Assembly (NCBI GenBank): GCA_947568835.1
Contig: OX387610.1
Span: 9,883,501-9,947,500 of the forward strand
Origin: Protonemura montana
Lineage: Eukaryota; Arthropoda; Insecta; Plecoptera; Nemouridae
Length of the DNA stretch: 64,000 bases
Direction: 5' to 3'
Positions 1,901-52,950 of this stretch are shown here, piece after piece. Each line of letters begins with the position of its first letter. Position 1 is the stretch's first letter. The notes beneath the pieces are model-generated. The model was given only the letters and a program-made list of their open reading frames with translations. It had not been told where the DNA came from and ran no database searches. The position numbers and the translations under genes are program-made.

Positions 1901-2034
1901 CGCACGTGTGCATTATGTGCATTATGTGCACCTAACAGGCCTTACATGAGTGCTGCAACCAAATCGAACTGTGAGAGTTTCCTGAATGCACTAAAACCTT
2001 TTTTAATGCCTTCAGGAAACACCAATTTTAATTT

Positions 2035-2412
2035 CGGCACTGGTCTACTGGCGTCAGTGAATTAGTGGATGATGATGATGATGATGATGAGGATAATTAT
2101 GCACCTAACCTAGCTAAAAGTGAGAAGGGGAAATCCGGTGCCGGCACGTAGCCTACTCCTGTCGAACAGCACCAAGGGGACCACTGGCTCAACGTCCCTT
2201 CCGAAGGACGGTACAACTCGAACAGCAGGATTACTCCATAAATCCATGCTGTCGAGAGGTTGATAAGCAAGGTGAGAGAAGTTACTGAACTAACTTTCAT
2301 CCCTCCAAACTCTCTCCCGAACAGAACTGGTCATGTGTATGATGGTCACCCATCCAATACCTGACTCAGCGCAGTACTAACCGGTTTTTCCAACACGCCA
2401 AACCGGTCGGTA
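2035..2412 (-). repeat. 5S-derived SINE, nearly full length
   Basis: Minus-oriented copy containing the 5S-like head (about 2340-2412), the conserved body with the CCTTCGGAAGG palindrome, the CAT/ATG-rich stretch (GATGAT repeats at 2070-2090) and part of the 3' region. The TGCGTCGTTAAAC tail is missing, so the 3' end is truncated. Confidence 0.85.
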
Positions 2413-3862: not shown

Positions 3863-4329
3863 TGTAAACACGTTTTGGTCACTTAGCATTTTCAGAATGA
3901 CTAATGTATTTAACAAACACATCTCAGCTTGTTTATACTTTCGAGTGTAAACACGTCAAGGAAATATTATCGCGCAATGGTGCATTCGTGATGACGTCAG
4001 TGGCCCTAGAGCGGGTGGTCGCCAATGTCTTGGGTGGCATGCGGAAGTTTATTATCTATATATTTTGTCACTACATCTTGATCAGTTTAATTCTATCCAT
4101 CATTGAGGAAGGGTGTAAAGAGTACTTCTAGTCTATCTTGTAACATCGATCGATTTTACAATGCCTCAGTGCTCGTTTTACGGCTGTTACAGTACCAATA
4201 AATCAGTACCTCGCCGAAAATCACTCGGCACATGTGCATCTTTCGAAATCACTGGGAAACGGCTTGCGTAGTCCACATTTGCATCAAAAAATATTGTTAT
4301 TACGGCCTGCATATGCATGTAATGTGGTA

Positions 4330-4475
4330 TCGTCCTTTCAAACTGATAAGGCTCCAGCAACATCCGCGATATGTGGAGATCGGGGTTCGAGTCCCCTTTT
4401 GGGCATCTCATTTTGAGAGAGTAGCTGTGTTCCGAACAATAAAATACCCTGCGGATTGCAAGCGTTTGCAATTTA
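4330..4475 (+). mobile_element. tRNA-like repeat, degenerate copy
   Basis: A tRNA-like core lies at about 4345-4408, with a clear B box (GGTTCGAGTCCCC) and an acceptor-like end TTGGGCATC. The 3' flank (ACAATAAAATACCCTGCGG then ATTGCAAGCGTTTGCAATTT) is shared with 31655-31712. The 5' half is poorly conserved. The same core occurs at 27297-27465 and 51561-51683, where flanking inverted repeats are clearer. It is not a functional tRNA gene, because the anticodon arm is not canonical. Confidence 0.6.
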
Positions 4476-4520
4476 TATCAGATTGAGTCTGATCACTAAC
4501 CACGTGGGCGCAAGAATAAC

Positions 4521-4964
4521 ACCGAACAATTTGGCGTGTTGGAAACACCGGGCCTCGTGAGATCACTGAAGTTCAGCAACACTACGCTGAGTCAGGTATT
4601 GGATGGGTGACCATCATACACATGACCTGTTCTGTTGAATGAACTTCAGTTGAATGATCTGTTCGGGAGAGAGGTTGGAGGGATGAAAGTTAGTACAGCA
4701 ACTTAAATCGTCTTGCTTATCAACCTCTCAACAGCATGAATTTGTGGAGGAATCTTGTTGTTCGCGTTGCACCGTCCTTCGGAAGGGACGTTTAGCCGGT
4801 GGTCCCCTTGAAGCTATTCGACAAGAGTAGACTACGTGCCGGCACCGAGTTTCCCCTCCTCCCTTCTAGACTAGGTTAGGTTCATCATCATCCTTATCAT
4901 CATCCACTCATTAGACCAGTGCCACAGTGCGTCGTTAAACACCACAAATGAATCAATCAAATCA
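4521..4964 (+). repeat. 5S-derived SINE, full length, with target-site duplications
   Basis: This is the best-defined copy. It is flanked on both sides by the same 11 bases, GCAAGAATAAC (4510-4520 and 4965-4975), so the element is 444 bp. Order of parts: a head resembling 5S rRNA, with the conserved GATCACTGAAGTT..CAGCAAC and GTATTGGATGGGTGACC segments (about 4560-4615); a short duplication near 4640; a conserved body (4660-4870); a CATCATCATCC-rich stretch; a CCAGTGCCACAG...GTGCGTCGTTAAACACCAC tail; and an (AATC)n end. In 5S genes these head segments are the internal control region bound by TFIIIA, so the element belongs to the SINE3 (5S-derived) class. Confidence 0.93.
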
Positions 4965-5510
4965 GCAAGAATAACTTGCCATATAAGACTTACTTTAGAG
5001 GATAGGGCTGCTTTGAGGTTAACCTAACAAAAATGAAGGTATTCCTATGGCACCTTTCGGTTTCACCCTTGCGTAAGGTACTAAGCATGGATAGCTACAC
5101 ATCGTGACAGATAGCGGGGTGGAATTTGTAATGTGGCGTGTTTGCGTTTCTGGTTAAAAATAGGCTTTGCAAAAATACAGATGCCAGGATATTTTTAAAT
5201 AAAACTGTCATTTTTGTCATGCGATGCGAGAGATAAGCGGGATGATATTTAAAAAAAAATTGGCGGGGGTGCCAGTCACCCTGGTTAGAATGTTGTTCTA
5301 AAATGTGTAATTTTTGTGAAAATCGATCTCAACAGAATATATAATTTAGGTACTATCTACGTCTGCTACAGCACAACGTGACAAACATTCTCAATTTAAT
5401 TCTGGAAAAGTGCAATCTTTATATTTTAACTGTTCACAGTTTTGAATTCGTATTTTGATGCTTTATAATAGATATTTTGTTTTACAAACAAAGCTTTTTT
5501 ATTAACAATG

Positions 5511-5642
5511 TTGATAAGCAAGGCAAATGTAGTTACTGTACTAACTTTCATCCCTCCAACCTCTCTCCCGAACAGAACTGGCCATATAGGTTACCCATTC
5601 CAATTACTGACTCAGCGCTGTTTCTTAACTTTGGTGACGATC
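5511..5642 (-). repeat. 5S-derived SINE, 5' fragment
   Basis: Minus-oriented fragment holding the start of the body (CTTTCATCCCTCCAACCTCT on the plus strand) and the 5S-like head up to TAACTTTGGTGA. The 3' half is absent. Confidence 0.75.
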
Positions 5643-6452: not shown

Positions 6453-6492
6453 CATGTTGTTGGCATTACCACTCATACCTTGCTGTGGCACT

Positions 6493-6709
6493 TCTCGTGC
6501 CGTCCTTCAGAAGGGTCGTTGTGCCGTTGGTCTCTTGGGTGCCCTTCGGCAGGAGTAGGCTGAGTGCCGGCACCGGGTTTCCCTTTTAGACTAGGTTAAG
6601 TTCATCATTCTCGATATCACCCATTCATCCACCGGTGCTACTACGCCAGTGCTACAACGCCTGTTGTCAATACAGTGCGTCGTTAAACTCAACAAATCAA
6701 TCAATAATT
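6493..6709 (+). repeat. 5S-derived SINE, 3' half
   Basis: Contains the CCGTCCTTCAGAAGGGTCG hairpin, GAGTGCCGGCACCGGGTTTCC, the TTAGACTAGGTTAAG segment, the tail GTGCGTCGTTAAACTC and an (AATC)n end. The 5S head is absent. Confidence 0.85.
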
Positions 6710-7997: not shown

Positions 7998-8338
7998 AGT
8001 GGCAAACTCTAAGCGACGCTCACTTTCTGTCCTTGCAAATATGGCGGATATTGCTTGGAGATGGCCACTCTCCTGCCGTGTAAACATGGCACCCATCGCT
8101 TGGTGATGGTCATTTTTGACAGTGCAAACGTGGCACCCATTGCTTGAAGATGTCCACTCTCTGGCCGTGCAAACATGGCGGATATTGCTTGGAGATGGCC
8201 ACTCTCTGTCCTTGCAAACATAACACCCATCGCTTGGTGATGGCCACTCTCTGCTTTTGCAAAAATGGCGGGCTTTGCTAGATGGCCACTCTCCTGCCGG
8301 GCCAACATGGCGGCAATTGCTTGAAGATGTCCACTCTC
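7998..8338. repeat. 45-bp minisatellite, locus 1
   Basis: Seven to eight imperfect head-to-tail copies of a unit containing GATGGCCACTCTCTG, GCAAACATGGCG and ATTGCTTGGA. The CCACTCTC landmark recurs at about 8064, 8154, 8199, 8243, 8285 and 8331 (a diverged form is at 8109), a period close to 45. Because the period is a multiple of three, frames stay open across it on the minus strand; these are not genes. The same unit forms an array at 49580-49860. Confidence 0.9.
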
Positions 8339-8660
8339 TTACTACACCGATTCACAGTACGGCTTGTGGCTGGACCGGTCTGATGTTACACAACGGAGAG
8401 CGAAGGTAAAAGGGTTTTGATAGCATCTGTGAAATACAGGTCTGGGGGATAATTGGGGCCTCATCTCAGATCGATTAAGAAGAATAGAGAACATATGTTG
8501 TTGGCTGTTACGTCTTCTTGGATGGTGGTCGACGTGTGCTTGGGCTAAAGGAAGCTTTGATCCGGGGATTAAACTGCAGCTGACTGCTAAGCTGAGATGA
8601 TTATTTTTGATGTGTTTTATGAGGTGGCTCGACTCGCTATATTCTTTTGCTAGAAGCGAA

Positions 8661-8855
8661 ATTGTGGTGTTTGTGTTTAACGACGCACTGTTTTGACAGA
8701 GGGCTTTGTGGTACTGGTTAAATGGTCAGTTAAATGGTTGGGTAATAATAAGGAGAGTACTTGACATTTGTATTACAATACATGACCCAGCTTAGTGTTG
8801 TTAAGCTTCGGTGATATCACGAGAATCGGTGTTTCAACTTTCCGAACCGTTCGGT
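8661..8855 (-). repeat. 5S-derived SINE, internally deleted
   Basis: The 3' tail (GTTTAACGACGCACTGTTTTG, in part) is joined to a 5S-like head (TTAAGCTTCGGTGATATCACG and CCGAACCGTTCGGTG) with most of the body missing. Confidence 0.8.
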
Positions 8856-12760: not shown

Positions 12761-12765
12761 TATTA

Positions 12766-13000
12766 AAGTTGGTACAACAACTTCACTCGCCTTACTTATC
12801 AACCTCTCGACAGCATGCACTTATGAAGGAATTCTGTTGATCGCGTTCTACCGTCCTTCGGAAAGGACGTTCTGTCGATGGTCTCCTTGGCGCTCTCCTC
12901 CTTTCTGCTACAAGTTAGGTTCATCATCATCCTCATCAACATTCACCAACTCTGTGTCACAGGGCCCGTCGTCAAAACCGTGCGTCGTAAAACACAATCA
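12766..13000 (+). repeat. 5S-derived SINE, body and tail
   Basis: Starts within the body (CAACTTCACTCGCC), includes CAACCTCTCGACAGCATG and CCGTCCTTCGG, and ends with CCGTGCGTCGTAAAACACAA. The 5S head is missing and part of the body before CTACAAGTTAGG is deleted. Confidence 0.85.
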
Positions 13001-13097
13001 TTTGAACCAATAACGCGACATTACATGCAAAGCGTTTACAAAATAGAGATGAACAACAAACGCAATCGATTCAATTGATTAACTATTCCAATCTTAA

Positions 13098-14830: not shown

Positions 14831-14835
14831 TGACA

Positions 14836-14905
14836 ATTTGTGGTGTTTAACGACGCACTGCTTAGACATACGACCTTGTGGAACTGGTATACTGTCATTC
14901 ACGTT
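14836..14905 (-). repeat. 5S-derived SINE, 3' tail fragment
   Basis: GTGGTGTTTAACGACGCACTG followed by the GGAACTGGT segment in minus orientation; nothing else of the element remains. Confidence 0.7.
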
Positions 14906-19165: not shown

Positions 19166-19238
19166 CTTTAGTAGTGTGTGAACCGGTCGGCATCCCTAGA
19201 CCACGGCGAAGCATAAGACATATAAAAGTATTGCTTAA

Positions 19239-19312
19239 CAACCGACGCCATTAGACCAGTGCCGCAGGGCCAGTTGTCAAAACAGTGCGTCGTTAAACAC
19301 CACAAACAATAA
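19239..19312 (+). repeat. 5S-derived SINE, 3' tail fragment
   Basis: CCGACGCCATTAGACCAGTG, then CAGTTGTCAAAACAGTGCG and TCGTTAAACACCACAAAC. The rest of the element is missing; the CCCTAT array lies about 75 bases upstream. Confidence 0.85.
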
Positions 19313-19635: not shown

Positions 19636-21024
19636 TCAATCCCAATCTATAAAAGAATGTGATCTCCACGCCTCCAAGTAACTCTGGCTAGCTTTCACGA
19701 ACCTTCCAAGGTACTCAGCCTTCCAGTCGATGGTCCGTGACGGTTGAGCTGCAAACAGTTCCTCAAGAGACGCTTTGTGGTTCGGTACCGTACCGAAGTC
19801 CCTTATCAAGTACGACCTCCACAGCTTCTGGTCGTTGCCCAAGATGTGCAAGTCCGTGCAGGTCTCGGAGAGAGCCCTCCAGTCATCCGGAACTCTCAAA
19901 CTCTCGAAGATCTTCAGCTTGACCTCGGTCGGAAGCCCCGTGATACTTGCGTTTATTTGGCCGTGCTCTTCAAGGATCATGTTTCTTAGGGGGTGAACTA
20001 AGTTCCTGAAAAGCAGGGACAGCTCGCTTAGCTTGTCGAACATGTCTGGGATTTCTGCCTCCTTACTGGCTACGTATCTTGATGGCTGGATGTTGATGAT
20101 TTCGGCCGTTGACGAGAAGTTGACGAACAAGTTAACGATTAGACTGTCGTCGATGGTGTTCGTGGCAGAGCTTGTCTCGACTTTCTTCGCTAGGAACTGG
20201 CAAACGGCTTTGTGGCAAGGGTTCAATGAGAACTGCATCGAATATTTAGAGCCGTTTGCGGCGCGCCAGTTTTTTGGCATTTTTTGGATTGCTTTTAGTT
20301 TTTGAGAGTCGTAGGAGTTGCCGTACGGGGACGTTGGTCCTGGAAATGTGAGGTGGAATCACAAATTAGAGGATTTTGTTTGAATAGACCTAAAATTTTC
20401 CACAAATCGTCCTTAAAAAATGATGTTAGACCAGAACAGCCCACAAATTTCACAACCAAGCGATCTTGTGCGATAAAAACTTTGCCATACTAGGTTAATC
20501 ACCGAAGTTAAGTAACACTGCGCTGAGTCAAGTATTAGATGGGTGACCATAATTATTATCATATTATCATCATGACCCACTTATTCACCGACGCCATATT
20601 GGACCAGTGCCATAGGGCCCGTTATCAAAAAAACATGTCGCTAAATCCAAGTAATCAATCGATAATTGTATATAGAACAGGAGTTTCGCTCATTCAAATA
20701 AGTATAACCCTAACCTCGGCCAATATTTAGCCACATTTTTAAAACACAGATTGCAAGATCCAGCTCTTGATTTTCATTGATCAAAATACTTAAATTTTAT
20801 CGATAGCTATCTATCACCAGGAGCGAACCTGTAAGAACGTCGTCAACGGCCAACGGCGTGAATCCCGCCTCCGCCATGAGTCCGAATAAGATGACAACTG
20901 TCAGATCGTAATCTGTCAAACTGTCTGCGAGTTCTGTCTTGACTTCCAAGATGAGTCGTTCTAAGTAGTTAGGCAGCCGGCTCTGACTGCACTCCCCAAT
21001 CAATGTTACTGCGTCTTCGCTCAT
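19636..21024 (-). CDS. F-box protein, FBXO7/nutcracker type
   Basis: Two exons: 21024-20829 (ending ACAG/GTTCGC) and 20339-19636 (after ACATTTCCAG); both sides are phase 1, giving 299 residues. Exon 1 and the start of exon 2 match the FP domain of FBXO7, which binds the proteasome regulator PI31: DLTVVILFGLMAEAGFTP corresponds to ALIVLIHLLMLESGYIP in human FBXO7, and MPKNWR to MPEKWK. The F-box spans about residues 195-245 (LPTEVKLKIFESL..LSETCTDLH..LWRSYLIRDFG) and is followed by DWKAEYLGRF, as in the human protein. F-box proteins join substrates to the SCF ubiquitin ligase; fly nutcracker acts in caspase control and proteasome function. Compared with human FBXO7 it lacks the N-terminal ubiquitin-like domain and the Pro/Arg-rich tail. 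An in-frame stop at 19636 after FIDWD ends it. The intron holds a SINE (20494-20668). AATAAA lies at 19410-19405. Confidence 0.85.
20494..20668 (+). repeat. 5S-derived SINE in the F-box gene intron, internally deleted
   Basis: Head AATCACCGAAGTTAAGTAAC..GATGGGTGACCAT joins directly to the 3' region CGACGCCATATTGGACCAG and the tail; the body is deleted. It is antisense to the host gene. Confidence 0.85.
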
Positions 21025-22898: not shown

Positions 22899-22970
22899 TT
22901 AGTGGCAAGTGTCATAGGGTCCGTTGTCAAAATTATACGTCATTAAACACAACAAATCAATTAATCAATC
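22899..22970 (+). repeat. 5S-derived SINE, 3' tail fragment
   Basis: GGCAAGTGTCATAGGGTCCG and TTGTCAAAATTATACGTCATT, then AAACACAACAAATCAATTAATC. Confidence 0.75.
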
Positions 22971-23850: not shown

Positions 23851-23854
23851 TATG

Positions 23855-23978
23855 GGGGCACCGGACTTTTCGTCTTCCTTTCCAGGTTAGGAATGGTTTA
23901 TTATAACGCTATCAATCGGTGTAACAATTAGACGAGTGTGACAGGAATCTTTATCATAGCAATGCGTCGTTAAACGTG
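23855..23978 (+). repeat. 5S-derived SINE, diverged 3' part
   Basis: CACCGGACTTTTCG, CCAGGTTAGG and the tail AATGCGTCGTTAAACG, in the expected order but diverged. A further tail remnant in minus orientation is at about 24258-24276. Confidence 0.6.
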
Positions 23979-23999
23979 ATTTAAATATTAAAAAAACCA

Positions 24000-27868: not shown

Positions 27869-27975
27869 AAATTTCCAGAAATCGTCTTTCACAGCCATTT
27901 TAAAGCAATAAACGCTGATAGTTTCATGGACGGCATTTGAAAATTAAGTTTGGAATGATTCGATTCTGAATTTGT

Positions 27976-28175
27976 ACGGGACCAAGGGGACCACCGACTT
28001 AACGTCCCTTCCGAAGGACGGTACAACGCGAATAACAGCATTCCTCTACAAATCCATGCTGTCAAGAGGTTCATAAGCAAGGCGAATGAAGTTGCTGTAC
28101 TAACTTTCATCCCTCCAACCTCTCTCCCGAACAGAACTGGTCATGTGTTTAAAGGTCACCTATCCTACACTATGT
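27976..28175 (-). repeat. 5S-derived SINE, body fragment
   Basis: Contains CGTCCCTTCCGAAGGACGG, the CATGCTGTCAAGAGGTT segment, CTTTCATCCCTCCAACCTC and the start of the head region. It lies head-to-head with the next copy, about 70 bases apart. Confidence 0.9.
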
Positions 28176-28246
28176 TACCCTGGTCAAATAGCCTCTTTAA
28201 GTGTTTCAATCTTTTCTCTCGAGTCAAGCTACGGAATATCTATACA

Positions 28247-28671
28247 GAACGGTTTGCCGTGCTGGAAACACCGGTTCTCGTGAGATCAGCGAAGTTAAGC
28301 AACACTGCGCTGAGTCATGTATTGAATGGGTGACCATCATTCACATTACCAGTTCTGTTCGGGAGAGAGGTTGGAGGGATGAAAGTTAGTACAACTTCAC
28401 TCACCTTACTTATCAACCTCTCGACAGCATTTATTTGTGGAGGAATCCTGTTGTTCGCGTTGTACCGTCTTTCGGAAGGGACGTTTAGCCGGAGGTGCTC
28501 TTCGACAGGAGTAGGCAAGTGCCGGCACCAGGTTTCCCCTCCCCCCCTTCTAGGCTAGTTTAGGTTCATCATTATCCTCATTATCATCCACTCATTCACC
28601 GATGCCATAAGACCAGTGCCGCAGGGCCAGTTGTCAAAACAGTTCGTCGTTAAACACCAATAATCAATCAT
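28247..28671 (+). repeat. 5S-derived SINE, full length
   Basis: Head GGAAACACCGGTTCTCGTGA, GATCAGCGAAGTTAAGCAAC and TATTGAATGGGTGACCATC closely match 5S rRNA. The body, tail (GTTCGTCGTTAAACACC) and AATC-type end are all present. Possible imperfect target-site duplications: GGAATATCTATACAGAA before, GGATACCTACAGAA after. Confidence 0.92.
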
Positions 28672-30760: not shown

Positions 30761-31910
30761 CTAAAGCTCATCGCCAAAGCCGATACGAATCGGTTCTGAA
30801 ACAAACAAAAAGTACTTAGTAAAATAAAAATCAAATCTGCAAATATATTCGCTTATTCTGGGAAATCTTGTAAAAACTGGAAAATTAATTATTATATTGG
30901 TAATTAAATTATGAAAAATCTGGTTCGCTATAATCTGAAAATAGTTTAATGTGTTGCAATCATAGCTGAAAAATATTGTTTGGAGTAGCCTTTATTATTT
31001 CATGTCAAAAATATTGACAGCATTGTTGTTTACGCTTCTAAAATCGTTACCTATTGACACAAACTGTCAAGAGTGTAGTTACCTCCATTCTGTGAACCAG
31101 AAAATCCCATTTGGACATCACCTGAAAGTAAACAATCGCCCATCATTTTAAAACGTTCCCAATGCTATTGGTACTACGAGTGGTACGTTTACAAAATCAG
31201 TTGACCTTGAGTTCCGACTCGAACGCATATCCTACGCACTGGCACCGGTTTATCCCGCCTACCTTTTAGGCAAGATTAGTTTCGTCATTTTTAACTCCAT
31301 TCACTCATTCACAGATGCAATAAGGGACCAACGGTCTAAGCAGTGCGTCCCTAAATACCACACATTTGGTTATTTGCCTTCACTTTGAGCCTGCCGTAAG
31401 CTTGATATCACCGAAGTTAAGTAATATTGCGCTGGGTCAGTTATTGGAAAGGTGGCCTAAATTAGTTCAAATACTTCACTCACCCTGCTGATCACCCTTT
31501 CGACAGCCTCAGGTTCATTATCATCCTTGTCATCAACTATTCAAAGCATTTATTATTAAACTCAACAAATCAACCGCTTAAGAGATTGCACCGTCAAGTT
31601 TAGAACAACATCATATTCATTCTTTATATAATAATAATAATGCAATAATAATAATAATAATGATAATAATTAAATACCCCACGCATTGCAAGCGTTTGCA
31701 ATTTAAATAAGATTTCAAATACCAACCTCCATACTTCTTCTTAATCATCTTCCTGAGCTGTTTGACGCTGAGATTAGGATCGACGTCGTTCCCGACAAAC
31801 TGACGCAAAATCTTACGGTACTCCTCATCGTCCATGTCGTCTGGTTTCTCAAAGGCCAAGGTCATCGCGACGCATGCCGCCAGAAGGAGGGCAATCAGGG
31901 TTATTCTCAT
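30761..31910 (-). CDS. Secreted 85-aa protein, three exons with a 39-nt microexon
   Basis: Exons: 31910-31727 (ends GGAG/GTTGGT), 31121-31083 (39 nt, between TTTCAG and GGAG/GTAACT) and 30795-30761 (after TTGTTTCAG, ending TAG). All junctions are phase 1 and the frame is open throughout. Residues 1-19 are a signal peptide (MRITLIALLLAACVAMTLA). Residues 20-60 are charged and probably helical (DDMDDEEYRKILRQF, then VKQLRKMIKKKYG); the microexon encodes Gly/Ser-rich text and the end reads IGFGDEL. The last four residues, GDEL, resemble an ER-retrieval signal (KDEL/HDEL) with a non-basic first residue, so either secretion or ER residence is possible. AATAAA lies at 30678-30673, 83 bases past the stop. 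A 5'UTR intron is likely: acceptor AATTTCCAG near 31961, donor CTTAAG/GTAGGA near 32399. Family not recognised. Confidence 0.65.
31201..31370 (+). repeat. 5S-derived SINE, 3' part, diverged
   Basis: CACTGGCACCGGTTTATCCC, then AAGATTAGTTTCGTCAT and tail GCAGTGCGTCCCTAAATACC. It lies in the first coding-region intron of the 85-aa gene, antisense. Confidence 0.75.
31405..31576 (+). repeat. 5S-derived SINE, internally deleted
   Basis: Head ATCACCGAAGTTAAGTAATA..TGCGCTGGGTCAGTTATTGG and part of the body, then CAGGTTCATTATCATCC and a short end. In the same intron as the previous copy. Confidence 0.8.
31617..31712 (+). repeat. ATA-rich tract and tRNA-like-element 3' flank
   Basis: (ATA)n sequence followed by ATTGCAAGCGTTTGCAATTT, which also follows the tRNA-like element at 4330-4475. 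Confidence 0.6.
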
Positions 31911-32059: not shown

Positions 32060-32332
32060 TGGTTTGTTGTGATAACGACGCACTGTTTTGAAACGGGTTC
32101 TGTGATACTGGTTTAATGGCGTTGGTGAAGAGAGGATGAAGAAAACGATGATGATAAGCCTAATCTGGCTTAGAAGGAAAGAGGGAAACCCGGTGTAGGC
32201 AGATAACCTTTTTCTGTAGAAGAGCACCAAGGGGACCACTGGCTGAACGACCCTTCCGAAGGACGGTGCAACTCGTCAAAGAAATCTTCTACAAAATAAT
32301 GTTTTCAAAAGGTTCGTAGACATGACGACAAG
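32060..32332 (-). repeat. 5S-derived SINE, body and tail
   Basis: GATAACGACGCACTGTTTTG, AAACCCGGTGTAGGC, CGACCCTTCCGAAGGACGG; the head is absent. It lies in the probable 5'UTR intron of the 85-aa gene. Confidence 0.85.
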
Positions 32333-32559
32333 ATTTCCCAAAGAGTTGATTGGAGATTTTTTCAAATTTAGCTGAGAAAATAGTGTACAGATTTTCCTAC
32401 CTTAAGAGATGGCGGAATGCCGAGGTCTTCGCGGTGTAAGTCGATTGGAAATGTAGATTTTCTAAGCAACTCGCGAAAAGTTCTGTCCACACCTGATATT
32501 TGGTTAACCTCGCGGCGATACGAACTGGCCTATGACATGGGGACACATATACTTACGTC

Positions 32560-36300: not shown

Positions 36301-36517
36301 GGTGGTCCTCGTATTAAGTTTCATCTGACGAGATAAACGCTATTTTTTTTAAGCTTTCCATCGAGTTTAGGATCCCTAAACGTTTTTTTTTTTTGGGACA
36401 CATTTCGAAGATAATAGGAAGATAAACGTTTATTTGGTAATTTCTTTGTCGATTACTTTTTTAGCGAACGGTTATAGTATTTAGACTCATGTTTACTTTG
36501 TCTAACCTTGGTTATCA

Positions 36518-36655
36518 TTTTGACAAAAACTATTTCAACTGGGTTTTGAATGCTAAGTGAAGAATAACCAGATTTCCGTTAGCCGCATGTGATTTAGTCG
36601 AATAGTTTTTCTTCACTTAGCATCCAAAACCAAGTAGAAATAGTTTTTGTCAAAG
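36518..36655. repeat. Inverted repeat with arms of about 47 bp
   Basis: TTGACAAAAACTATTTCAAC..TTGAATGCTAAGTGAAG is matched by CTTCACTTAGCATCC..GAAATAGTTTTTGTCAAA in inverse, around a spacer of about 40 bases. No coding content. It may be a small non-autonomous DNA element. Confidence 0.8.
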
Positions 36656-42370: not shown

Positions 42371-42387
42371 TTTGAATTTACTAGATT

Positions 42388-42765
42388 TATTGTGTTTCAC
42401 GACGCATTGTTTTGATAATGGGCTCTGTGGCACTGGTCTAATGGCGTCGGTGTATGAATGACTGATGATGCGGATGATGATGAACCTATCCTAGTCTATA
42501 AGGGAGGAGGGGAAACCCGGTGCTGGAACACAGCCTACTTCTGTCAAAGATCACCGAGGGGATTACCGGATTAACGATCTTTCCAAAGGATGATTTAAAT
42601 GGAAGAACAGGATTACTCCACAAATCCATGCTATCGAGGTTGATAAGCGATGCGAGTGATGTGATACGTACTTGAATTCTTCTGTTTATCTCTACCGAAC
42701 AGAACTGGTTATGAGTATGATGGTCACCCATCTAATGCCTGACCCAGCGTGAAGATGCTGAACCG
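42388..42765 (-). repeat. 5S-derived SINE, nearly full length, diverged
   Basis: Tail TGTTTCACGACGCATTG, GATGATGATGAACC, AAACCCGGTGCTGG, CAAATCCATGCTATCGAGG and part of the head (GATGGTCACCCATCTAATGC). The innermost head is missing. Confidence 0.88.
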
Positions 42766-45642: not shown

Positions 45643-46093
45643 GGATTGATTGATTATTGTGTTTCATTACGCACTGTTTTGACAGCGGGCCCTTTGGCAC
45701 TGGTCTAAATGCTATCGGTGAATGAGTGGATGATGATGAGGATGATTATGAACCTAACTCAGCCTAGAAGAGATGAGGGGAAACCCGAAGGAATGTAGCA
45801 ATCCGTAGCGATCCTGTCGAATCAAAAGGTCCACTTCCCGTCAAGGGGATTACCGGCTTAACGTCCCTTCCGAAGGACGGTACAACTCGAACTGCAGGAT
45901 TCCTCCACAAATCCATGCTGACGAGAGGTTGATAAGCAAGGCGAATGAAGTTGCTGTGCTAACTTTCATCCCTTTAACCTCTCTTCCGAACAGAACTGGG
46001 CATGTGTTTGATGGTCACCCATCCATTACCTGACCTAGCGCAGTGTTGCTTACTTCGGTGAACCGGTGTTTCCAACACGCCAAACCGTTCGTG
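45643..46093 (-). repeat. 5S-derived SINE, full length
   Basis: Includes (GATT)n start, CATTACGCACTGTTTTGACA tail, body with CGTCCCTTCCGAAGGACGG and head CGGTGTTTCCAACACGCC then AAACCGTTCG. A short insertion-like segment (about 45798-45845) differs from other copies. Confidence 0.92.
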
Positions 46094-49579: not shown

Positions 49580-49860
49580 CGGGTCAAAGAGTGGGCATCT
49601 CCGAGAAAAAGCCACTCTCTGACCGTGCAAACATGGCGGTCATTGCTTGGAGATGGCCACTCTCTGGCCGTGCAAACATGGCGGTCATAGCTTAAAAATG
49701 GCTACTCTCTGGTCTTGCAAATATGGTGACCATTACTTACATATGGCATTCTCTGACCGTGCAAACATGGCGTCCATTGCTTGGAGATGGCCACTCTCTG
49801 GTGTTGCAAATATGGGGACCATTACTTGGAGATGGCCACTCTCTGACCGTGTCGGAGTGG
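49580..49860. repeat. 45-bp minisatellite, locus 2
   Basis: Six units with the same consensus as at 7998-8338 and in the same orientation; the CACTCTCTG landmark recurs at about 49612, 49657, 49702, 49747, 49791 and 49835. An 80-codon frame across it is an artefact of the period being a multiple of three. Confidence 0.92.
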
Positions 49861-50196
49861 TCACTCGTCGTTGCTCATTTTCCTTGTAGTCGATGACTTA
49901 GTCTGCCAGGTAACAGATGAGGTGAACGTGCGACACGGGGTTGTCGTAATTAGTGTGCGAGATAATCGTACATCGCCGTGGTTATTGTTTAAATGGCGTT
50001 CTGGATCAGGTTGAGTGGCGGTAATGCGAGCGACGGGTTTTCGGCTACGATTAGGAAAGGAATTGAAGATTCTTGTCTTTTTTCTGTTAATGAAGGAGAG
50101 TGATTTTCCTTCGTGGAATTCGAGGTAGTTATTGTAATTGTATTGTATGTATTCTACAAGTATGTCTGCGCGCCTGCCTTTTCTATATGTTCCATA

Positions 50197-50455
50197 CACT
50201 TCATTCGCCTTGCTTATCAACCTCTCGACAGCATAGATTTGTGGAGGAATCCTGTTGTTCGCGTTGTACCGTCCTGCGGGAGGCGGTCCCCTCGGTACCC
50301 TACGACAGGAGAAGGTTATGTGCCGGCATATAGTTTCCCTCCTACTTTCTAGGCTAGGTTAGGTTCATTATTATTTGATCATCATTCACTCTTCCACCGC
50401 CGCTATTAGTCCAGTGTTTTGAGCTAATTGTCATAACAGTGCGTCGTTAAACATA
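50197..50455 (+). repeat. 5S-derived SINE, body and tail
   Basis: CACTTCATTCGCCTTGCTTA through CTAGGCTAGGTTAGG to GTGCGTCGTTAAAC. The head is missing. Confidence 0.9.
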
Positions 50456-50574
50456 AAAAGTTAAATCAACTTAGACATTTCAACGTAGTCATACCATACA
50501 TGAAGAAAACTGGCACAAAATCGCACTCATCCACAGATTTTCCAACCACTGCAACATCATCATCGATTTTTCCC

Positions 50575-50998: not shown

Positions 50999-51069
50999 GC
51001 AGCACAGTGTTGCTTAACTTTGATGATCTAACGAGTACTGTCGTTTCCACAACGTCAAACCATTCGGTA
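50999..51069 (-). repeat. 5S-derived SINE, head only
   Basis: CAGTGTTGCTTAACTTTGAT and CACAACGTCAAACCATTCGG match the 5S-like head in minus orientation. Confidence 0.75.
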
Positions 51070-51560: not shown

Positions 51561-51683
51561 CACTAAAATCGTCTCACAAAGCCAGTGTCCAAATAGCTCA
51601 ATGGTTTAGAGCAACACCCGCGATAGGTGGAGACGGAGGTTCGAGTCCCCGTTTGGGCATCAATTTTTGAGACGCTTATAGTG
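51561..51683 (+). mobile_element. tRNA-like repeat flanked by inverted repeats, best copy
   Basis: Core 51585-51662: acceptor-like GTCCAAA/TTTGGGC pairing, A box TAGCTCAATGG, B box GGTTCGAGTCC, a possible anticodon stem CACC/GGTG around a 7-base loop lacking T33. Flanks 51561-51580 and 51664-51683 are inverted repeats (CACTAAAATCGTCTCACAAA against TTTTGAGACGCTTATAGTG). The A and B boxes suggest RNA polymerase III transcription; the anticodon loop argues against a working tRNA. Confidence 0.7.
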
Positions 51684-51699
51684 TTGATAATAATACAAT

Positions 51700-52950
51700 G
51701 TTCTGTAACAAAGTCTGTAGTAGGGTATACATATATTGCACAGTGTCGCACAGAAAATTGAGAATAATCAATTATTAAAAACGTCTCATTACGGTATGCG
51801 AGTAATGCGAGTAAAAAACGGTTCAAGGAACAAAAAATTTGAATGTTTTTGAGAACTTACAAGTTGCAAAAAGCGAATATCTCATAGGCAGACTACCCCC
51901 TTGTACGATTGGGGATTTCCAGGCCACCCATGGAAGGAATTCCCCGCTTAGATGATTGAATACACCACCGATGAGTGATAAATTGTCATCGAAAGTCTTA
52001 ATTAATTCCGTCGCACGTTAAAGTATGTCGCGTCATTGTCCACGACATCAATAGCCGGACACGGAAGCTGACCGACGAATTTCTGAGACGCGAAATCGTT
52101 GGAATTGAAACGCACAAGGAAATGCGTGCTAAAACACCTCACAGAAGCTTCGGGGGAAAATTGATTTGATGGTACGTAGGTTTTTTTTCGGACGCGAGTT
52201 GAATATAAGTGCGGAAAGAAAAAGTGGGAACTTATTAAAACGTAATTGAGCGTCTAAAATGCGAGTAATCTGCGAGAAATCACGAGATTAAATTTTTTAA
52301 TCGCAGTATTTTAGTAAAAAACGCCACTTTTTCGGGGTCATATCTTAAAAATTACAAATTAATTATTGGCCTTGATTATTTTATTTAGATACATTTAGGA
52401 TGACTAAACTAGGTAATTTTTTAATTTTTTTGTGGTTCTTTTGTGATCGGAAAATTGTCAGGACTGCTTAAACCCTTGATAAAGTAACAGGTACAAGTAA
52501 CGAAACGTTGGGAAATTTAGCTGTTCTTCACTAAAACCCAGTTTTAAAAAGCTTTTTTCAAAACTAGTGCTAAGGCTAATTCAAGTAGACATGAATCTAA
52601 AAAATGTAATTTTTGCAGTTATTTGCGTGAAGTCGACGTGGTAATAATTCGGAATTATTCGCGAATGCAGTTAAACATTGGCACTAAGACTCTGACCATA
52701 CACTATAAATCCAATGGTCCAAGCGAATGACGCCAACGCTATAGGTAATCATGTCGCATGCGGGAAAGCTAGTTTTTCTCACGTGTTTCCTTCTGGTCTT
52801 CGCTTTTCCTCGCCGATGAGCATTTAACTGTGTTTGTCGATTTATCATAGAGCCATGTTGACTTTGAACTCGTTTTAATACGAAGTTAAATGCTAAAAAA
52901 ACCGTGTATTTGATTTAAAATACTACCTACTTAAATCCCATTTCCAGTAA
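51700..52950. other. Gap with a dispersed repeat
   Basis: Apart from the repeat at 52215-52320, nothing recognised. Confidence 0.35.
52215..52320 (-). repeat. Dispersed repeat, copy 3
   Basis: TAATTGAGCGTCTAAAATGC and GAGTAATCTGCGAGAAATCA are the inverse of the copies at 34440 and 46940. Confidence 0.65.

Follow-up and report, generated by a model that had tools for sequence, protein, structure and literature searches.

A SINE3-type retroposon in the genome of Protonemura montana, headed by sequence derived from 5S rRNA, is very probably being converted, by the route proposed below, into satellite-like DNA whose repeat unit is its own promoter. In several copies of this element, a 91-bp unit that corresponds to consensus positions 49-139, and thus holds the A box, the IE and the C box together with some of the body, is repeated head to tail. 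A 22-mer spanning the unit-to-unit junction occurs 23,969 times genome-wide with at most one mismatch (16,001 times exactly), while the reversed junction pattern, used as a control, has no match in the genome. The assembly (34 contigs, 258 Mb) was entered through a stretch of 64 kb, hereafter the window (C13:9883501-9947500), in which an initial annotation had recognised a SINE with a 5S head. This reading is supported, and tandem arrays of the promoter, situated in other parts of the genome and invisible from the window, are added to it.

The length of 444 bp given in that annotation for one copy, here called the index copy, is borne out by identical 11-bp duplications at 4510-4520 and 4965-4975, which leave 4521-4964 between them. 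Within this copy we take the A box to lie at about 4570-4584, the IE at about 4587-4592 and the C box at about 4600-4617. The features of the index copy are as follows.

4510..4520, + strand: 5' target-site duplication GCAAGAATAAC, identical to the 11-mer at 4965-4975
4521..4964, + strand: 5S-headed SINE, 444 bp, old copy (81.6% identity to the provisional consensus)
4537..4612, + strand: 5S-derived part of the head, consensus 17-92 (Rfam 5S, 39.3 bits)
4569..4659, + strand: single equivalent of the 91-bp unit that is tandem in other copies (parsed as one unit)
4570..4617, + strand: 5S internal control region (gap-free mapping from the consensus)
4928..4944, + strand: conserved 3' tail TGCGTCGTTAAACACCA, presumably recognised by a LINE (pattern search)
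4965..4975, + strand: 3' target-site duplication GCAAGAATAAC, perfect match to 4510-4520

The other copies in the window, all from profile matches, are the following.

2032..2411, - strand: SINE copy, consensus 1-393
5508..5638, - strand: SINE fragment, consensus 42-179
6484..6708, + strand: SINE fragment, consensus 209-439
8672..8855, - strand: SINE remnant, split into consensus 1-112 and 341-427
12762..13001, + strand: SINE fragment, consensus 136-432
14831..14898, - strand: SINE 3' end, consensus 371-438
19235..19312, + strand: SINE 3' end, consensus 361-438
20459..20653, + strand: SINE remnant, split into consensus 5-97 and 343-431
22904..22958, + strand: SINE 3' end, weak match (E 0.00067)
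23853..23979, + strand: SINE fragment, consensus 290-428
27974..28170, - strand: SINE fragment, consensus 76-272
28245..28665, + strand: SINE copy, nearly full (Rfam 5S, 40.8 bits)
31174..31508, + strand: two SINE fragments, consensus 230-433 and 31-189
32063..32333, - strand: SINE fragment, consensus 156-432
42385..42764, - strand: SINE copy, consensus 50-433
45649..46091, - strand: SINE copy, nearly full (Rfam 5S, 41.3 bits)
50195..50464, + strand: SINE fragment, consensus 151-436
50999..51068, - strand: SINE head fragment, consensus 1-70

In all, a search of the window by nhmmer with the 444-base consensus returns 22 matches (E<=1e-3), in both orientations and at about 20 separate places, which agrees with the 5S-headed family described earlier; three windows shuffled in three-base blocks give none. 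These matches span 4,462 of the 64,000 bases (7.0%), so that the statement that the family dominates the window was too strong. Rfam recognises 5S rRNA at three heads, at 4521(+), 28245(+) and 45985(-), all above the gathering score of 38. The tail TGCGTCGTTAAACACCA is present at 14 places of the window with at most three mismatches, two of them (25774 and 53211) outside the 22 matches. The window also contains a frame with an MBF2 domain, which, like the abundance of (TTAGG)n in the assembly, is in keeping with an arthropod host, and two related minisatellites of 45/90-bp period (8053-8339 and 49611-49851), which are about 73-84% alike between the two sites.

The 5S ancestry of the head was assessed against a host 5S gene (L031:1501-1619, 117.5 bits). 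Consensus positions 17-92 align with this gene at identical coordinates, with 67 of 75 aligned bases matching and one pair of one-base gaps, and the consensus reaches a score of 100 where the maximum over 500 shuffles is 38. As the initial annotation had anticipated, the alignment extends over most of the TFIIIA control region, and the rest of the element is free of 5S similarity: beyond position 97 the score is 16, chance level against a shuffle mean of 16.7. By segment, the consensus differs from 5S at 3/33 positions in 17-49, 5/25 in 50-74 and 0/14 in 79-92; conservation in the control region is no higher than in the upstream 5S part (17-49). By box, with limits that we assume from general 5S gene numbering, the differences amount to 2/15 in the A box, 2/6 in the IE and 0/13 in the first 13 positions of the C box. 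Of the TFIIIA promoter segments, the alignment thus covers the A box, the IE and the first 13 of the 18 C-box positions; the last five (consensus 93-97) all differ from host 5S. Positions 1-16 are not recognisably 5S (11/16 differ without gaps). Since the coordinates coincide over 17-92, consensus position 1 would, by register alone, correspond to about 5S +1. The element is short and noncoding, its longest stop-free stretch being 73 codons (63 from a methionine), and no TTTT occurs in the 444-base consensus. Host 5S genes were also seen on C11 (about 1-110000; L034-L038 and L053), where each repeat, of about 9.5 kb, holds three of them in mixed orientation. Near a 5S gene in L038 and L053 there is a histone 3' stem-loop, so that 5S and histone genes are probably linked.

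The element behaves as a mobile one. Target-site duplications with a score of at least 11 flank 10 of the 26 copies with both ends available (the window copy entering twice, as L001 and as the window) as against 2 of 750 mismatched flank pairs; in the other 16 copies a duplication of that score is missing. The family was recently active, since many dispersed copies of full length show 96-99% identity with the provisional consensus; the index copy, at 81.6%, is older. Together with the 5S alignment over 17-92, the duplications and the dispersed near-identical copies support its identification as a 5S-headed SINE, that is, a non-autonomous retroposon of SINE3 type. The initial annotation had named two outcomes that would speak against this class, a head no more similar to 5S than chance and a lack of target-site duplications; the alignment exceeds chance, and duplications are present in 10 of the 26 copies. 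The Rfam 5S matches in the window could be ascribed to processed 5S pseudogenes or decayed 5S genes that belong to no mobile family, but this is refuted by the common non-5S body of about 350 bases, by thousands of unit-to-body steps in the genome, by the target-site duplications and by the 96-99% identity of dispersed copies, and its probability is practically nil. A Deu domain, for which a fish segment served as query, gave no significant match (191 of 1000 shuffles score as high). Searches for relatives returned no match in viral contigs (two patterns) or prokaryote contigs (one pattern), collections that hold no animal genomes.

As for the 3' end, a partner LINE would presumably reverse transcribe the SINE RNA by way of its ...GTCGTTAAACACCACAAATAATAATAA tail, and the LINE family concerned would end in GTCGTTAAACACCACAAATAATAA. 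The predicted LINE with the 3' end of the SINE was not found: the SINE tail is present in none of 30 reverse transcriptase (RT) loci with 1.5-kb flanks, out of at least 150 RT matches. Among the tails in the loci examined, 40 of 43 have SINE-like sequence upstream, and the remaining three show no sign of a LINE by eye.

The arrays of promoter units are joined to the rest of the element at many places, with 7,581 head-to-unit steps genome-wide (a count that includes the second array type described below) and 7,555 unit-to-body steps. Of 52 unit runs in the loci examined, 17 have at least two units, a proportion that is no genome frequency because likeness to the window copy decided the choice of most of these loci, and the presence of arrays that of some. 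Runs of 4, 5, 6, 10, 12, 13 and 17 units were found, the longest of them running off the end of its locus; the parsing into units splits the array of L029. Along the initial 2.3 Mb of C1, 100 exact junctions are listed, which resolve into 26 arrays, with an inferred size of 2 units (14 of the 26) to about 49. No junction is present in the window or in the 30 RT loci, from which it follows that the arrays are unevenly spread. In a second array type the C box is joined to the start of the element with a period of about 92, and this junction occurs 1,625 times genome-wide; one locus, L082, carries both types. The 91-bp block itself is bounded by a direct match, AAGTTA, at about consensus 49 (A box) and again at about 140 (body).

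The unit might instead have arisen as an independent satellite straight from 5S genes or pseudogenes, with SINEs acquiring it later. There is a precedent, as 5S genes have given rise to satellites in other animals. It is nevertheless disfavoured here, and highly improbable, in view of the composition and the setting of the arrays: the unit includes consensus 93-139, about 47 bases without a 5S match, and 8 of the 14 arrays of at least three units lie between a SINE head and a SINE body.

Small arrays move together with the SINE. A copy with three units in L022 is flanked by a perfect 13-bp target-site duplication, and another three-unit copy in L081 by a weaker one (score 9). The 5'-truncated copy of L027, with 12 full units, lies, to judge by eye, between 12-bp duplications that differ at one base. 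Unit divergence is 0.046 within arrays vs 0.055 between them, and 3 of 500 label shuffles are as low (90 units from 14 arrays; the cut-off L002 array is left out, and a garbled terminal unit from one L022 array is included here but not in the higher-order and variant analysis). Two of the four tested arrays of at least eight units, in L021 and L080(+), contain a four-unit higher-order repeat, with 2.77 and 2.5 differences per unit, respectively, at lag 4 and 4.5-7.0 at other lags; the two arrays without this period are L027, where the lowest value falls at lag 3, and L080(-), which has no clear period. A marker variant of L021 is found four times in the genome, three times inside the L021 array at a spacing of 364 bp and once elsewhere on C5. 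Among the 45 variants seen in more than one unit, 24 are confined to a single array and the other 21 are shared between arrays. The locus-specific variants and the four-unit repeats of two arrays point to growth in place, while the 21 shared variants and the two arrays without that period suggest that part of the arrays may have been dispersed in array form. Of the features by which SINE-derived satellites are recognised, three are present: tandem units taken from a portion of a SINE, runs of at least four units, and homogenisation or higher-order structure at the level of the locus.

A sequence of steps would account for this conversion. The 5S head would place a type 1 RNA polymerase III (Pol III) promoter inside the transcript, so that, to judge from its anatomy, each SINE copy could carry its own start signal, and the cDNA would be inserted with the target-site duplications observed. 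The AAGTTA match would have caused the initial duplication of the A-IE-C block, which may have happened once and then spread or may have been repeated at the match. Short arrays would spread with the SINE, and slippage or unequal exchange would afterwards extend them at the sites of insertion. At fewer places, the second junction has likewise given rise to tandem arrays. Internal transcription starts were considered as well, with array copies beginning 48 nt before an internal A box, and the BLAST boundaries of L004 and L026 seemed to agree with them. By eye, other 5' ends scatter, and duplications are apparent at L017, L018 and L027; this proposal was therefore rejected in favour of ordinary 5' truncation.

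The position of the arrays along the contigs is not even. When the 40 matches most similar to the window copy are compared, 9 of 16 array-bearing copies lie within 10% of a contig end as against 3 of 24 others (Fisher P 0.005), and 10 of 16 vs 7 of 24 within 20% (P 0.053). A 61-mer of the body, which marks one subfamily, has 745 exact matches in the genome. On C1, the only contig listed fully, 54 of its 59 matches are within 10% of an end (11.8 expected), and on C2 to 2.2 Mb there are 41 places among the matches listed, about 19 per Mb vs a genome mean of 2.9. The 61-mer occurs in loci both with and without arrays (L007, L015, L018, L021, L022, L023, L030 and L081). For the second array type, the matches listed on C1-C4 give 53 loci, 20 within 10% of an end (10.6 expected) and 52 within 20% (21.2 expected), a listing that may be thinned, because the one-mismatch junction listing omits places present in the exact one. 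RT matches are within 20% of a contig end in 103 of 147 cases (C8, C10 and C30 left out) and, leaving aside C11 and C16 with their dense clusters at the ends, in 50 of 91, so that they provide no clean control. A former proposal that the youngest copies are at the ends was dropped: full-length single-unit copies of 96-99% identity are mostly inside contigs, and the 61-mer marks only one subfamily. Contig ends are not proven telomeres; on C1 the first listed (TTAGG)n stretch is 0.9 Mb inward. Interstitial (TTAGG)n was seen at C1:916562-1101646 and at about 11.6 and 16.5 Mb, with 13,014 overlapping exact 30-mer matches genome-wide.

That arrays and one body subfamily are crowded near contig ends could reflect segmental duplication or gene conversion and not insertion or growth there, a possibility of some weight that we consider rather unlikely. 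Duplication involving SINE copies does occur, since an inverted pair of SINE arrays in L081 has outer flanks that are also duplicated, 98.7% alike; against this explanation, copies at L022 (0.11 from an end) and L008 (0.02 from an end) have target-site duplications of their own. The L081 pair (32-629 and 4004-4601; C1 at about 8.95 Mb) consists of an inverted SINE array with its 5' flank around about 2.6 kb of other sequence. Three inverted array pairs with a spacing of about 3.4 kb are present on C1. A composite DNA transposon was rejected for them because the interiors of two pairs (L080 and L081) are unrelated, and the common spacing is thus treated as coincidence. An inverted-repeat element at L080:2290-2690, which recurs in many of the loci examined and in the window at about 36474-36649 and 52359-52611, is probably a MITE-like family.

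Arrays so numerous might also be functional and kept by selection, by increasing SINE transcription through TFIIIA/TFIIIC sites, as a sink for these factors or by organising chromosome ends. The A-IE-C block stays within the unit whichever of the two junctions is used, the number of units is very high and array-bearing copies are nearer contig ends, all of which would suit such a role. Among the units themselves, however, mismatch is 0.035 at positions 50-97 and 0.019 outside, so that the boxes are, if anything, more variable than the linker (permutation P 0.054, in the opposite direction). The control region is thus no more conserved than the linker and gives no sign of selection on the boxes, and more than half of the arrays listed on C1 (14 of 26, up to 2.3 Mb) are just 2 units in inferred size. 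We therefore regard selection for function as unlikely, with a slight chance of being right, and prefer conversion of the SINE into a satellite by duplication, spread and growth in place.

A tandem array of another kind was observed beside the true 5S gene of L031 (1781-3119; C4 at about 25.51 Mb), where a 52-bp tRNA-like unit is present in 25 full copies and a cut one. This unit keeps box A and lacks a complete box B. A related single element lies in the window (51587-51659); the tRNA-like element has matches in many of the loci examined, and in L013 it is flanked by GTCTCAAAAA-type ends. With two unrelated promoter-bearing repeats turned into arrays, the 5S SINE with its two junctions and this tRNA-like element, one may ask if any Pol III promoter tends to be amplified in tandem in this genome. 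If so, duplication would be driven by Pol III transcription or by the binding of factors and would seed new satellites near chromosome ends, and the genome would gain about 24,000 extra 5S-type control regions. We hold this generalisation to be doubtful, although not negligible, because the tRNA-like unit lacks a complete box B and a single such array was found.

SINEs with a 5S head are known in vertebrates and in some insects (PMC7245038, PMC3272025, PMC8010984, PMC10886601). In the excerpts of these papers drawn on here, the insect SINE3 elements comprise SINE3-1_TC of Tribolium, HaSE3 of Helicoverpa, and PxSE4, PxSE5, LaSE2 and CsSE2 of moths, with Plutella among the hosts (PMC3272025, PMC8010984, PMC7245038, PMC10886601). 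With 5S-headed SINEs in print for Tribolium, Helicoverpa, Plutella and other moths, the remark in the initial annotation that few arthropod examples are known is fair. Like the present SINE, the insect elements as described in these excerpts have a 5S head with A, IE and C boxes, a body of other origin, target-site duplications and arthropod hosts. PxSE4, PxSE5, LaSE2 and CsSE2 are given as 294-389 bp, compared with 444 bp here. The comparison covers the layout of the elements, and the excerpts, unlike the present data, mention no promoter arrays. With vertebrate SINE3 elements the present SINE shares the 5S head. Deu-domain SINEs have that domain in the body, for which the fish segment gave no significant match here (191 of 1000 shuffles score as high). 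Cassandra and Ajax are likewise non-autonomous retroelements with a captured 5S promoter, but in the portion of the source used they are LTR elements, which carry the 5S sequence within the LTRs and have a different mode of replication (PMC10886601).

The closest precedent for the promoter arrays, in the parts of the literature consulted, is provided by the satellites of squamate reptiles that derive from tRNA-related SINEs, sSat1-3, which prefer subtelomeric positions (PMC10702118). According to the available text of that report, their units are also cut from part of a SINE, number from a few to hundreds and include locus-specific alternating subvariants, and the snake unit holds promoter box B and some body (PMC10702118). 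Their subtelomeric preference may have a counterpart in the present arrays, which are nearer contig ends, although these ends are not proven telomeres (PMC10702118). As far as the same text goes, most squamate arrays have one SINE terminus, while 8 of 14 arrays of at least three units here lie between head and body (PMC10702118). The present arrays further differ from those described there in their 5S-derived SINE, their arthropod host and the whole type 1 control region in each unit. Among the open-licence papers listed in the searches, none was seen to describe arrays of this kind for a 5S-headed SINE or for any arthropod. The element is best filed as of SINE3 type, with the promoter-unit satellite as a new variant. 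The birth of satellites from mobile elements is a long-standing question, and here one family in one genome presents a series from one unit, through a small array bounded by target-site duplications, to long arrays with higher-order repeats. Since one genome holds the whole series, the steps of the conversion can be tested with long reads and related species. The arrays also raise the question of the effect that tens of thousands of extra TFIIIA-type sites have on Pol III.

Matches to mitochondrial genes were observed in addition. COX1 is recognised by Pfam on the mitochondrial contig C34, where one strand presumably carries ND2-COX1-COX2-ATP6-COX3-ND3 plus ND6 and CYTB and the other ND5, ND4, ND4L and ND1, which we take to be the ancestral arthropod order. 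Two loci on a nuclear contig, L039 and L041 (C4 at about 5.76-5.78 Mb), also match COX1, one of them with a Pfam score equal to that of the mitochondrial locus L040 (C34); they are either recent nuclear copies or an assembly inclusion.
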